NCBI GenBank assembly: GCA_025056255.1
Contig: JANWVT010000005.1
Span: 129,001-193,000 of the forward strand
Source of the DNA: Bernardetiaceae bacterium
GTDB lineage: Bacteria; Bacteroidota; Bacteroidia; Cytophagales; Thermoflexibacteraceae
Direction: 5' to 3'
Length of the DNA stretch: 64,000 nucleotides
Shown here: piece by piece, positions 30,630 through 35,371 of the stretch
How the letters are laid out: every line of letters starts with the position of its first letter
How positions within the stretch are numbered: position 1 is the first letter of the stretch
The notes under the pieces: model-generated
Told to the model about the DNA's origin: nothing
What the model saw: the letters and a program-made list of their open reading frames with translations, nothing else
The model's database searches: none
Program-made: the position numbers and the translations under genes

Positions 30630-33257
30630 TTATCTGAAACCAATTTTTCGTTGTCCTAATAGCGACTCTTCATCAGAATTAACATTTTGCATATCGCTGA
30701 GAATAACTGTTTGCAGAGCTTCTTGGGTGCGAGCACTGCGGTCGAGCGTGGTCATGCGCAAATGTTGTTTGCGAATGACTTCGCTGATGAATTTGCGAAC
30801 CGAGCGAGCATTACCAAAGTATTTGTCTCGTTTTTCATGCATCAGCTGCAGCTGACGGCGCAGGTAAGCTTGTGTTTCTGCATCTGCCAAGTGTAAATTT
30901 TCGGCTGCCAGCATGGCAGTAGCTATCTGATAAAGCTCATCTACGGTGTAGTCGGGAAAAATCATAGTTTTGTCGAAACGCGACTTTAACCCCGGATTGG
31001 ACTCTATAAATCGGTCCATATTTTCCGGATAGCCGGCTACAATTACAATAAATTCACCGCGCCGGTCTTCCATTTGTTTCAGAATGGTTTCTAATGCTTC
31101 GTGTCCGAAGTCGTTACCGAAACCGGAGGAAGCAAGCGCATAGGCTTCATCAACAAATAACACCCCCCCTATGGCTTCGTCTATTTTTTCTTTGGTTTTT
31201 AGAGCTGTTTGTCCTACAAATCCCGCTACAAGCGATTGGCGGTCGCACTCTACAAGTTGCCCACGCTCCAAAATGCCTAATGCTTTGTAAATTTTGGCAA
31301 TAATGCGAGCTACTGTTGTCTTTCCTGTGCCGGGATTGCCTTTGAAAACGGCATGCAACGAAAACCGATTGAGAATGTCTCGTCCCGTTTCGCGATAGAA
31401 GCGAACCAGTTTAATCAGTTCATGAATTTGATTTTTGATTTCCGTAAGCCCAATCATGCTATTGAGCTCTGCCAGTGCTTCTTCAAGCAATACCGAGTCT
31501 TCTTGGATGTCGGGAAGCAGTTTGGCATCATTCTGAAAAATACGTTGCACATCTGCCAATTCTACGGTTTGCAACATTTCATGGGTAACTTCCGTGTGCT
31601 CTTTTTGTCGCATTACGCGAAGCCCCATGTTCATTTTAGCTTCGTCTACCAGTGAATTGACTAAGCGGGCGTTGCCAAAAGTACGGTCTCGGCTACGAAA
31701 CTTTTCAACAACTTTTTTGTAGAGAAAATCGAATGCCTCTTTGGTAAATTTGATTTGGCGTTGTTCGGCAGCTATTTCTATCAGTTTAAGCATTTCTTGG
31801 GGCATGTAGTCGGGGAAGTCGAAATACATGCCAAAGCGCGATTTCAACCCTGGATTGGTATCTAAAAAAATGTCCATTTCTTTAGGATAGCCTGCCACAA
31901 TAATGGCAATATCGCCCGGACCATCGGACATTTCTTTCACCAATGTTTCTATTACCTCATGTCCATAATCTTTGGTGTCTTCTGGGTTGCGCACCAGTGC
32001 GTAGGCTTCATCAATAAATAAAATACCTCCGCGTGCCTTATCAATGAGTTCTTTTACTTTGGGGGCTGTTTGACCGATGTACTGCCCCACTAACTCTGCT
32101 CTGCCTACTTCATGTACACGACCGTTGGATAGCAATCCCAAGTTTTTGTATATTTTACCAAGCATTTTAGCAATGGTAGTTTTACCAGTACCGGGGTTGC
32201 CTTTAAAAACAGCATGTAGGTTAATTTTTTTATCTTCATCGAAGCCTCTACTTTTGCGGAGTTGTAAAAATTTGAGGTAGTGAATGTAGTCGTGAATGCG
32301 GGTTTTGATTTTCTGCAAACCAACTAGGTTATCTAAGCGTTGCAAAACGGCTTCTAATGGCTCGTCAGCATCTTCATTGTTGAAAGCTTGTTGGGGGGGA
32401 TGGATATCGTGGCTGCGCAGCAACGGACTTTCGCCTCTGATGTAGCTGTCGCCAGTAGAAAAGGGCACCACTGCTACTAAGTGGTCCATAAAAATAACTT
32501 CCAGCGTATATTTATCGGGATACCATGAGCCGCGCGTATCGCTACCCCAACCGGTAGTAATAGTTACGCTATCTTCTTCTGGATTAACGCGACGCAGTTC
32601 GGTAGTAACGCCTTTAAGTTGTGCGGCATCGTTGTAAAAATGGAAGAACAGCTCGCAATACCACGAACTGCTCTGTAAGTTCTGGAAGGTAAATTCTGCC
32701 CAAATGTAGCGGGTATCTTTGGCATCAAATTGTGTGTAGTAAACGCGGTCTTCGGGGTTCACACCTTTGTTAGGTCCTTCGTAGAGGCGAATGCGTTCAA
32801 TTTCGAAATAGGGATTTTCTGTATCGGATACTGGTCCGCCATTTTCAATGTAGAATTTCTTTTTTCCCACTATCTCATCGTCTATGCTGGCTTCCCATTG
32901 GTAGTCGCCTCGGGTCCAGAAAACGCCGGGGGTTTGATTGCCCCAGCCTTCGCGCACCATTACGATATTGTCTTCTGCCGAAACGCGGTAATTGTCTAAC
33001 CTAATTTCGCATACTTCTTCGCGCTTGTTTTTATCGGTGAGCCGATAGCAGCGAATAACAATGTTGCATTCCCAATCTTCCTCATCAAAAAGTTTATTGT
33101 AAAAAGACAGTTCGCAGTACAAATAAGTAGTTTCTATATTTTCAAAGACTGTGCGGTATTTCTTCTTCCCGTCGGCAAGCCACTCGGTAGAGCTGTAAAC
33201 CTTTAAGTCTTTGAACTTATAGTTTTTATCCAACGTTTTTTTGCTTCTGAAAATCAT
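30630..33257 (-). CDS. Tandem CbbX/SpoVK-type AAA+ ATPase with duplicated N-terminal domain
   Basis: An 875-residue protein made of two doublets. Residues about 35-140 and 170-275 are two copies of a beta-rich domain sharing the pattern W/Y-C-E-x-F near the start and GWG-x-x-T-x-G-x-W near the end (REGWGNQTPGVFW; TTGWGSDTRGSWY). Two CbbX-like AAA+ modules follow, each with Walker A GNPGTGKTT (about residues 350 and 636), Walker B ILFIDEAYAL / VLFVDEAYAL (about 409 and 695), an arginine-bearing NPGLKSRF, and a FGNAR sensor motif. Both ATPase sites look active. CbbX remodels Rubisco and SpoVK acts in sporulation, neither of which applies here, so the client is unknown. A -7-like TATTTTTG lies at 33313-33320 without a -33 partner. 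Confidence 0.85.
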   Translation of the reverse strand: MIFRSKKTLDKNYKFKDLKVYSSTEWLADGKKKYRTVFENIETTYLYCELSFYNKLFDEEDWECNIVIRCYRLTDKNKREEVCEIRLDNYRVSAEDNIVMVREGWGNQTPGVFWTRGDYQWEASIDDEIVGKKKFYIENGGPVSDTENPYFEIERIRLYEGPNKGVNPEDRVYYTQFDAKDTRYIWAEFTFQNLQSSSWYCELFFHFYNDAAQLKGVTTELRRVNPEEDSVTITTGWGSDTRGSWYPDKYTLEVIFMDHLVAVVPFSTGDSYIRGESPLLRSHDIHPPQQAFNNEDADEPLEAVLQRLDNLVGLQKIKTRIHDYIHYLKFLQLRKSRGFDEDKKINLHAVFKGNPGTGKTTIAKMLGKIYKNLGLLSNGRVHEVGRAELVGQYIGQTAPKVKELIDKARGGILFIDEAYALVRNPEDTKDYGHEVIETLVKEMSDGPGDIAIIVAGYPKEMDIFLDTNPGLKSRFGMYFDFPDYMPQEMLKLIEIAAEQRQIKFTKEAFDFLYKKVVEKFRSRDRTFGNARLVNSLVDEAKMNMGLRVMRQKEHTEVTHEMLQTVELADVQRIFQNDAKLLPDIQEDSVLLEEALAELNSMIGLTEIKNQIHELIKLVRFYRETGRDILNRFSLHAVFKGNPGTGKTTVARIIAKIYKALGILERGQLVECDRQSLVAGFVGQTALKTKEKIDEAIGGVLFVDEAYALASSGFGNDFGHEALETILKQMEDRRGEFIVIVAGYPENMDRFIESNPGLKSRFDKTMIFPDYTVDELYQIATAMLAAENLHLADAETQAYLRRQLQLMHEKRDKYFGNARSVRKFISEVIRKQHLRMTTLDRSARTQEALQTVILSDMQNVNSDEESLLGQRKIGFR

Positions 33258-33372: not shown

Positions 33373-33954
33373 TTATAAATGAAATCCTGCCCGTACAACC
33401 CAAGGACTTGCATAGGGTGAACGCAACTGATTCCAAGAAAAATTATAGAGCACCGTTAGGTTAAAGGCAGCACGGCGCCCCATGGGTTGGCTGTAGCCGC
33501 CACCTAGAAAAGTGCCCGGCACCCAGCCTCTCCGCACTTCGCCTACCAGTTGGTCGAAATAGGCTACATTTAAATTTTCGTACTCTGCATGGGCAAAAAA
33601 TGGTGAAGAAGCAAAGGGAAAAAAGCGCCCAAACACACGCCCGCCATAGATGCTGTTGGCGGTAGTGTTAAAGCCACGGAAATTGAAACGGATGTATTGA
33701 TAAGTGGCACCCACTCCTACTTGCAACTGCGGGGTAGCCTGATAAAAAACCAGTGGCGATACGTCTATGAATGTTACGTTGCCAAACTGAAAACTAAAAT
33801 TGCCGCCAAACCGAACGCGGTCTATCAAGCGCTGCTCTTCTGCCGGTAACGAAGATTTTCGCGGCGCAAAAGTACTGTCATTTTGTGCTTTGGCATAGTA
33901 AACTGCAAAAATGAGCAAAATGACAATGAGAATATTTCGCAGGGTGTGTTGCAT
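33373..33954 (-). CDS. Small outer-membrane beta-barrel protein
   Basis: A 193-residue protein with a signal peptide (NILIVILLIFAVYYAKAQ). The mature part has amphipathic strands (VRFGGNFSFQFGNVTFIDVSP, LQVGVGATYQYIRFNF, SIYGGRVFGRFFPF, FFAHAEYENLNVAYFD) and a C-terminal strand ending AGFHL, typical of an outer-membrane barrel of eight or so strands. No closer family is recognised. The ATG at 33954 gives the signal peptide; the longer frame overlaps the end of the upstream peptidase gene, which lies 58 bases away. Confidence 0.72.
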   Translation of the reverse strand: MQHTLRNILIVILLIFAVYYAKAQNDSTFAPRKSSLPAEEQRLIDRVRFGGNFSFQFGNVTFIDVSPLVFYQATPQLQVGVGATYQYIRFNFRGFNTTANSIYGGRVFGRFFPFASSPFFAHAEYENLNVAYFDQLVGEVRRGWVPGTFLGGGYSQPMGRRAAFNLTVLYNFSWNQLRSPYASPWVVRAGFHL

Positions 33955-34012
33955 AAAACTGGAACTGTTCAATCTCGATAACTGATACGCAATTTCAAAC
34001 AAGTCAGTTGCT

Positions 34013-35371
34013 TTAAGGCTGTACATGTTGCACTTTTCGTGGAATTAATATCCATTCTTTTTGTCTGCCATCTAAATATTGCACTTTCCCATCTTGTCGG
34101 AAAACAGCAGGTTGTTCGAGCATAATGCGCAATTCTTTGTTTTGCCATTCAGCAATGGGCACTCTTACGTTGAGCTCAATAGCGTATGCGGTATTAGGAC
34201 GAATCGGGTACTCGCCTGTGCCGGGAACATGCACCTGATTGTCCCACATGCCAATAGCAGGTCCGGCAGCGTGCCCATGCAACCCTAATGCGTGTGAATA
34301 TATCTGTGCCTGAATACCCTCTTTCTTAGCTTGTTCCAGTGCAAGTTTGAGAATCTCGTTGCCAGTTCTGCCAGTTTTAAAATGCGAAGTGAGAATGTCT
34401 TGTGCGCGATTGCCAACCGATAGTGTTTTTTTTAGGTAATCTGGCATATCGGTTTCGCCGGGTCTCAGCACATATGCCATCTGCTGGGTGTCGGTGTGCA
34501 TGCCTACGTACTCAAAGCCTAAGTCGATATGCAGCACATCGCCGGGCATAATCACGGTTTGCCCGTCTGGACGAGCAGAAAAGGCATAGAGCGGCTGGTC
34601 TGGTCGCTGAACGTCCACTGTTGGGTGAAACCATGCTTGTAATGTCAGTGCTGCCATGCGTTCGCGATACCACCATACTACCTCGTTGGTAGTAGTTACG
34701 CCGGGTTGAATAACGCTTTCAGACAGTCCTTCGGCAATGATAGTGTGAGCAATGCGGTTGGCTTGCTCAAAAACCATCAGTTCTGTTGGTGTGCGGGTCT
34801 CCAACCAATTAACTGCCAAGCGCTCTGCCGAAACTACTCTGTTTTTAAATGGCTCTGGCAAGCGGCTCATGAAGTTTTCATATTCTGTATGGCTGATACC
34901 ATCGGCATGAGCAAAGGTTTCCGAATAGTTCAAGCCAATTCGTTGAGGGTTGCGCTCTTGTATGAGTTGTATCAGGCGTTTCCACTGGTCAGGCTCTTGT
35001 TCTGGCGTCCAAGCCGCTTTAAACAACTCACCAACGTTGTAGCGTGCTACAGCCAACAGTTCCAGTCCTTGTGTTGTTCCTCGGTCATAAATGAACAAAA
35101 TGGTTTTCCGCCTTGCAGAAAGCCAAGTAGCTGGCAACATAGTGCGCATCACGGGGTCTTCGTTGTATTCTTCGGCTATCAGCAGCCAAAGGTCTATGCC
35201 ATTTTCGCGCATCAAAGTGGGCAAGAGTGTTTCCATGCGCTCTTTTAAAATCTGGTCGCGCAGGGCAGCGCGTTCTTGCAGCGATAAGATGCGAGGCATA
35301 TGGCTTTGGGCTACCAAACTGAGAGGTGCCCCGCAAATAAGCATTATCAGAACAAGGAAATTTCTCAACAT
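34013..35371 (-). CDS. Exported M24 family metallopeptidase (Xaa-Pro aminopeptidase-like)
   Basis: A 452-residue protein with a signal peptide (LVLIMLICGAPLSLVAQ), an N-terminal creatinase-like domain (residues 30-190) and a C-terminal pita-bread domain. The metal ligands of the M24 family are present in order: Asp in LHIDLGFEY, Asp in HTDTQQMAY, His in SHALGLHGHAAGP, Glu in AIELNVR and Glu in IMLEQPAVF. It would remove N-terminal residues next to proline or act as a related dipeptidase, in the periplasm. The start at MLRNFLVL was chosen for the signal peptide. Confidence 0.88.
   Translation of the reverse strand: MLRNFLVLIMLICGAPLSLVAQSHMPRILSLQERAALRDQILKERMETLLPTLMRENGIDLWLLIAEEYNEDPVMRTMLPATWLSARRKTILFIYDRGTTQGLELLAVARYNVGELFKAAWTPEQEPDQWKRLIQLIQERNPQRIGLNYSETFAHADGISHTEYENFMSRLPEPFKNRVVSAERLAVNWLETRTPTELMVFEQANRIAHTIIAEGLSESVIQPGVTTTNEVVWWYRERMAALTLQAWFHPTVDVQRPDQPLYAFSARPDGQTVIMPGDVLHIDLGFEYVGMHTDTQQMAYVLRPGETDMPDYLKKTLSVGNRAQDILTSHFKTGRTGNEILKLALEQAKKEGIQAQIYSHALGLHGHAAGPAIGMWDNQVHVPGTGEYPIRPNTAYAIELNVRVPIAEWQNKELRIMLEQPAVFRQDGKVQYLDGRQKEWILIPRKVQHVQP

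Follow-up and report, generated by a model that had tools for sequence, protein, structure and literature searches.

Gene and domain layout

The window analysed here, a stretch of 64,000 nucleotides from a Bernardetiaceae contig (JANWVT010000005.1), carries an open reading frame, P0001, whose product begins with a pair of homologous beta-sandwich domains, continues with two AAA+ modules of the CbbX/SpoVK type, each with a lid, and ends in a short tail (Table 1). A double duplication, of the N-terminal domain and of the ATPase, had been proposed in the original prediction and was borne out by hhalign, AlphaFold2, Pfam, NCBIfam and the CbbX structures. Conservation was read from 70 aligned rows, which include near-duplicates and in some cases one genome fetched twice; thinning at 80% identity left 42 rows. 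The full-length structure model is a monomer with a pTM of 0.39, and the stacking of the rings is therefore not predicted by it. A literature search returned no study of this architecture among its best-ranked results.

Table 1. Features of the P0001 protein with their positions in the window.
Feature	Residues	Position	Strand	Evidence
Whole-protein ORF P0001	875 aa + stop	30630..33257	minus	ATG start; matched in 13/13 family genomes
Beta-sandwich copy 1, with GWGNQTPGVFW	12-139	32841..33224	minus	hhalign to copy 2; model; profile A5 E 3.0e-41 (copy itself in profile)
Beta-sandwich copy 2, with GWGSDTRGSW	146-270	32448..32822	minus	hhalign; model; profile A5 E 5.7e-41 (copy itself in profile)
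Linker, variable, disordered	~283-300	32358..32411	minus	pLDDT <50 at 283-296; mean conservation 0.287 over 276-305
AAA1 module with lid	305-575	31533..32345	minus	TIGR02881 266 bits; CbbX structure E 1.8e-48
AAA1 Walker A	353-361	32175..32201	minus	K359 and T360 in 70/70
AAA1 pore-loop-1 candidate	Y393-I394-G395	32073..32081	minus	Y 56/F 14, I 70, G 70 of 70; aligned with YIG of CbbX
AAA1 Walker B	411-417	32007..32027	minus	D416 and E417 in 70/70
AAA2 module with lid	592-858	30684..31484	minus	TIGR02881 271 bits; CbbX and EccA1 structures
AAA2 Walker A	640-648	31314..31340	minus	K646 and T647 in 70/70
AAA2 pore-loop-1 candidate	F680-V681-G682	31212..31220	minus	F 35/Y 32/W 2/H 1; G 70/70
AAA2 Walker B	698-704	31146..31166	minus	D703 and E704 in 70/70
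C-terminal tail, disordered	859-875	30633..30683	minus	pLDDT <50 at 861-875; columns 860-871 <=40% conserved (42 thinned rows)
[ILVM]-G-F motif (IGF here)	872-874	30636..30644	minus	69/70 rows; 42/42 thinned rows

Beta-sandwich pair

Profiles of the two copies, built from seven rows each, were aligned by hhalign with a probability of 97.9 (E 5.3e-13, 117 columns, 23% identity), and AlphaFold2 with 11 sequences predicted eight strands in each copy (mean pLDDT 81.8, pTM 0.65). The beta region extends from about residue 12 to 270 and not over residues 35-275, as had first been assigned. A GWGxxTxGxW motif was said to end both copies; it fits copy 2, but the version in copy 1 is one residue longer, and over 17 beta copies invariance was limited to the second G of GWG, the later G and the final W.

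The domain had been described as unknown, and the domain-database check likewise found no characterised family above cut-off. On the beta region, Pfam returned GAD-like only (E 0.11) and PHROGs remained below cut-off (E 0.22), while the 17-row profile, searched up to an E of 1, found nothing among PDB sequences and residues 1-280 had no TPR match. A secreted-looking relative was matched by PapC_N (4.3e-5) and DUF3859 (0.0022), both below their cut-offs. Foldseek returned generic Ig-like sandwiches (RbmA, protein 4.2, transglutaminases), as did the viral structure library. VIA listed AlkC with a Z of 11.2 and the Wzt carbohydrate-binding domain with a Z of 10.7 (rmsd 2.7, 109 of 143 residues aligned), a score that unrelated sandwiches reach alike. 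Since these matches are generic, no function for the beta domain follows from them.

With the 17-row profile, 45/198 genomes of the class were positive for the beta domain, and all 45 also matched the full protein. Apart from one stand-alone doublet and two weak fragments, the copies in these genomes sit in pairs within open frames of 603-935 aa; within the sampled class, which we take to be Bacteroidia from the placement of Bernardetiaceae, the domain hardly occurs outside this ATPase. The stand-alone doublet, 368 aa long, is encoded at L108 (open frame from 9564, G276:C95), and its genome codes for the full protein as well. Elsewhere in the phylum, outside this class, the domain was found in secreted-looking 279-aa doublets, in a 674-aa protein and in proteins of about 1281-1354 aa. 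Two copies each were present in the secreted-looking proteins of L121-L123 and L145:8615-10636; signal peptides of the secreted-looking proteins were judged by eye.

AAA+ modules and naming

Two stretches of the protein each were hit by Pfam AAA, by AAA_lid_6 and by the three top-scoring NCBIfam models. Crystal structures of CbbX aligned to both modules (E about 2e-48 for AAA1 and 2e-50 for AAA2), and a fold search with AAA1 placed CbbX on top (VIA Z 27.2 to 3syl, rmsd 4.5, 274 aligned, 35% identity). The sensor-1 GY that marks the SpoVK/CbbX/EccA clade was found in all 70 rows (G456-Y457 and G742-Y743), and so were the conserved Asn (N468/N754) and the invariant Arg six residues further on (R474/R760). 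R531/R818, assigned by sequence as the sensor-2 arginine expected of the clade, were equally invariant (70/70). In the clade, the first arginine finger is expected four residues beyond the Asn (PMC10659427); at that position here (472/758) Lys prevails (61 and 58 of 70) where CbbX has Arg, a point against the reading preferred below.

Walker, sensor and arginine positions were unchanged in 70/70 rows, in agreement with the original prediction that both ATPase modules, the second included, are intact. Conservation of the catalytic and pore-loop positions in both suggests that both sites are probably active. Cdc48/p97 chains aligned across both modules with a Z of about 17 and an rmsd of about 24, an alignment that is silent on the relative placement of the modules. 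Two active modules in one chain, together with the paired domain, had also been read as suggesting a dedicated machine. Tandem CbbX modules occur elsewhere, in beta-helix-CbbX2 proteins of Streptomyces and in other Bacteroidota proteins, and are not special in themselves. Three-module CbbX proteins were found in other Bacteroidota genomes. L159 and L160 encode proteins of about 1117-1120 aa that begin with a zinc-ribbon-like part and have three CbbX Walker A motifs. On a Bacteroides finegoldii plasmid (L234:3128-4798), a single CbbX module comes after a membrane-anchor-like N-terminus and a middle region reminiscent, by eye, of TerB.

The SpoVK model TIGR02881 scored 523.4 bits on the whole protein and passed its cut-off of 422.95 because two modules, of 271.1 and 266.2 bits, are summed. 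CbbX (TIGR02880, 438.1 bits) and EccA (TIGR03922, 424.5 bits) did not reach their cut-offs of 459.25 and 466.65. None of the names SpoVK, CbbX and EccA should be given to the protein, and a database label such as 'stage V sporulation protein K' would mislead for proteins of this kind. The defence ATPase IetA was considered and rejected, with partial AAA matches in PADLOC (best 63.3 bits) and 51.9 bits vs 510 for the NCBIfam IteA model.

History and related architectures

Proteins from other classes of the phylum share the beta domain in another arrangement, here called TPR-like-beta-CbbX3; the three inspected, from the group of about 1281-1354 aa, have a TPR-like start, one beta copy and three CbbX modules, and Pfam TPR matches in the two scanned were below the curated cut-offs. 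The third module of one such protein (L142:7418-11320) reads GNDGTGKTT and MIDNF; the latter means that the Walker B Glu is lost, and modules 1 and 2 look intact.

In a tree of 55 modules, AAA1 fell together with the first module of the TPR-like-beta-CbbX3 proteins, short of full support (98/71), and AAA2 with the second (100/99), which indicates that the duplication of the AAA module is old. The motif rule behind the tree recovered a single module of the two in L012, L034, L119 and L233, left out one of the three in L143 and L159, and missed L161 and L162 altogether; the branch of the CbbX row is very long, and deep splits have weak support.

Single-module versions lacking AAA1 occur in five genomes and retain the beta pair, AAA2 and the tail. 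Those of L112, L155, L156 and L157 fall inside the AAA2 clade, the tree being drawn without the fifth version (G146), and by this position they appear to have lost AAA1.

C-terminal tail

Sequence and length vary around the [ILVM]-G-F motif, hereafter phi-G-F, and the motif itself hardly does. Phi was present in 70, G in 69 and F in 70 of the 70 rows, with Met at phi in 5/70; the exception, L040, reads IRF and is removed by thinning at 80%. Between the invariant D855 and phi lie 12-19 residues, and 0-17 follow F. Within the last 15 residues, phi-G-F was found in 42/45 targets vs 8/554 neighbouring ORFs, an enrichment that serves as a yardstick only, as the 45 targets are homologues.

The motif is kept in the five single-AAA versions and was also found in two distant proteins of family f126. 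It did not end the three TPR-like-beta-CbbX3 proteins inspected, nor was it present in eight CbbX-like proteins that have no beta pair (L159-L162, L164, L165, L233, L234). L163 (G211), a 351-aa protein that starts like a membrane anchor and whose one CbbX module is placed beside the AAA2 clade, ends in LIGYTN.

Distribution and neighbourhood

The protein's own genome has one copy; two other matches are weak and cover the AAA part, one of them lying in ClpX. Within the order, 60/194 genomes matched at E 1e-40, three of them in the AAA part only, leaving 57 carriers. Within the class, 74/295 matched at E 1e-60, with eight counted as AAA only. Outside the family, identity was 48-60% in the near-full-length matches. 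A scan of named genomes yielded 11 loci, assigned to Bernardetiaceae (two), an uncultured Cytophagales (one), unplaced Bacteroidetes (five), Ignavibacteriales (two) and a bin labelled Draconibacterium (one). None of 228 matching plasmid records and none of 11 matching phages was covered over 80% of the query, the best 15 of 228 and the best 10 of 11, respectively, starting at residue 241 or later.

Neighbourhoods were compared over 46 loci with 747 crude ORFs of >=70 aa joined at 50% coverage, a set from which small or fast-changing genes could escape. The direct neighbours differ between loci, and no conserved operon was found: no other gene family was present in >4 of the 46 loci, the largest other clusters comprising 4 loci. 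The upstream 217-aa gene (33373-34026) falls in a cluster that spans three loci, which seem to be those of the genus. The protein is thus conserved without synteny, and the earlier statement that no Rubisco, sporulation or type VII secretion gene lies nearby to explain it is supported as far as Rubisco is concerned and in that no informative conserved neighbour turned up among the 46 loci.

Proposed function

The original prediction of a dedicated remodelling machine is upheld as far as an AAA+ remodeller with two apparently active modules and a paired domain as its probable client-binding part is concerned, but it overlooked the tail, whose near-invariant phi-G-F is the best clue to the partner. 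The reading we lean towards, with somewhat more confidence than doubt, is a cytosolic hexameric double-ring AAA+ remodelase of the SpoVK/CbbX/EccA clade, in which the beta pair would capture a client and the tails would dock a partner. The tandem beta-sandwich pair would take up a dedicated client, and two stacked rings with intact sites and mostly aromatic-hydrophobic-glycine pore loops would pull it as Cdc48 does. Flexible tails, one per subunit, would carry [ILVM]-G-F beyond the second ring and could attach the stack to a partner that offers hydrophobic pockets. ClpP would be the most likely named partner; alternatively, the tails may bind another partner or the neighbouring subunit, as in free HslU. 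Capture, threading and docking are proposed as the likeliest mechanism because SpoVK, CbbX and EccA form a clade whose characterised members act as dedicated chaperones and differ in their recruiting N-termini (PMC10659427). As one-AAA versions exist, a second ring is not essential, and the tail might play a structural part inside the hexamer.

A non-proteolytic dedicated chaperone comes a little short of an even chance. As in the pairs SpoVK-MurG and CbbX-Rubisco, it would activate or assemble one enzyme or envelope complex, and its tail would bind within the hexamer or to a partner other than a protease. Characterised members of the clade act in this way, and the clade authors report having found no peptidase links (PMC10659427). 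The C-terminal tail of free HslU sits in the cleft to the neighbouring subunit (PMC4106860), and L163, the relative with the membrane-anchor-like start, has IGY instead of the motif. However, an exact phi-G-F amid variable flanks and spacing resembles a docking peptide more than a packed tail, and its absence from the eight CbbX-like proteins inspected that have no beta pair also speaks against this reading.

A ClpP unfoldase, docked on ClpP by the phi-G-F of its tails and unfolding clients into that peptidase, is rather unlikely in our view. Clp ATPases are described as using flexible loops with (L/I/V)-G-(F/L), which fit hydrophobic pockets of ClpP (PMC8745299; PMC9035409). The IGF of the window fits this docking tripeptide, and the Met found at phi in 5/70 rows lies outside the published set. 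The own genome has one ClpP match and a ClpX loop reading RPIGFG, and the tail of L005 reads KRPIGF. However, the docking motif of ClpX is located in the large AAA domain (PMC9035409) and a linear IGF peptide has very little activity on ClpP (PMC8745299), whereas phi-G-F lies here on a C-terminal tail and not in a loop of the large AAA domain. Three residues are also weak grounds for a named partner, and the HslU-like protein of the own genome has an internal MGF. ClpP is near-universal (188/194 genomes of the order), so co-occurrence and ClpP copy number are uninformative; the six genomes with no ClpP match include two carriers, G005 and G088, which are both incomplete (89 and 75%). If ClpP were the partner, a further kind of bacterial ClpP unfoldase might be at hand, a double-ring CbbX-clade ATPase of Bacteroidota that docks by its C-terminal tail and has its clients chosen by a tandem beta-sandwich. 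It would be convergent with HslU-HslV, where the peptidase is docked by a C-terminal tail whose Phe matters (PMC4106860); we regard such a kind as doubtful.

A partnership with the proteasome-like peptidase Anbu or with HslV is very improbable. At L091 (7750-8514), an Anbu-like gene lies 29 bases downstream of the orthologue on the same strand, probably by chance; an NCBIfam search of its product named no family, and from its N-terminus we take it to belong to Anbu. This one neighbour had suggested Anbu as a general partner, but co-occurrence ruled it out, Anbu being present in 19/57 carriers vs 55/194 of all genomes (Fisher p 0.21), and neither the own genome nor three others of the genus had a match to the Anbu-like protein. 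The own genome encodes a protein of proteasome fold whose size is HslV-like (open frame of 196 aa), but the HslU-like protein of that genome, named by sequence reading, has its own C-terminal tail, which ends in HYIL.

A Rubisco activase or type VII secretion ATPase proper is hardly credible: CbbX and EccA1 are the best solved homologues, but the protein stays below both cut-offs even with two modules summed, it has no TPR match in residues 1-280, and RuBisCO_large (PF00016) was matched in 1/13 genomes of the family and not in the own genome (G000), as the original prediction's remark on missing Rubisco would have it.

The searches turned up no study of this protein, which is well conserved in many Bacteroidota and carries a testable partner motif. 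A ClpP link, if true, would place a peptidase beside a clade thought purely chaperone-like and give the Clp system an extra unfoldase. Even if ClpP plays no part, a near-invariant tail motif and a near-exclusive domain make the hunt for client and partner direct.

Comparison with known systems

CbbX, the activase of red-type Rubisco (3syk/3syl/3zuh), shares the AAA module with its lid and the YIG pore loop, but has one module and no beta pair, and the genome of this protein has no Rubisco. SpoVK of B. subtilis, the MurG chaperone and the highest-scoring NCBIfam model, shares the GY of the clade and also its Asn, here mostly with Lys four residues on, and differs in a short N-terminal domain, described as three strands and a helix (PMC10659427). 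In EccA of type VII secretion, a CbbX-like module likewise stands behind an N-terminal interaction domain; its N-termini are TPRs or a beta-helix (PMC10659427), whereas a beta-sandwich pair is found here.

The TPR-like-beta-CbbX3 proteins found here have the same beta domain, but a third module stands where the tail would be, and the three inspected have no phi-G-F end. ClpX, ClpA and ClpC, which work with ClpP, share the phi-G-F tripeptide and belong to another AAA clade; in the present protein the motif lies on the C-terminal tail. In Cdc48/p97, all of the matches listed start at residue 285 or later, outside the N-terminal part, but the likeness is one of layout as well: an N-terminal part is followed by two AAA modules per chain, and the sequence match runs over both.
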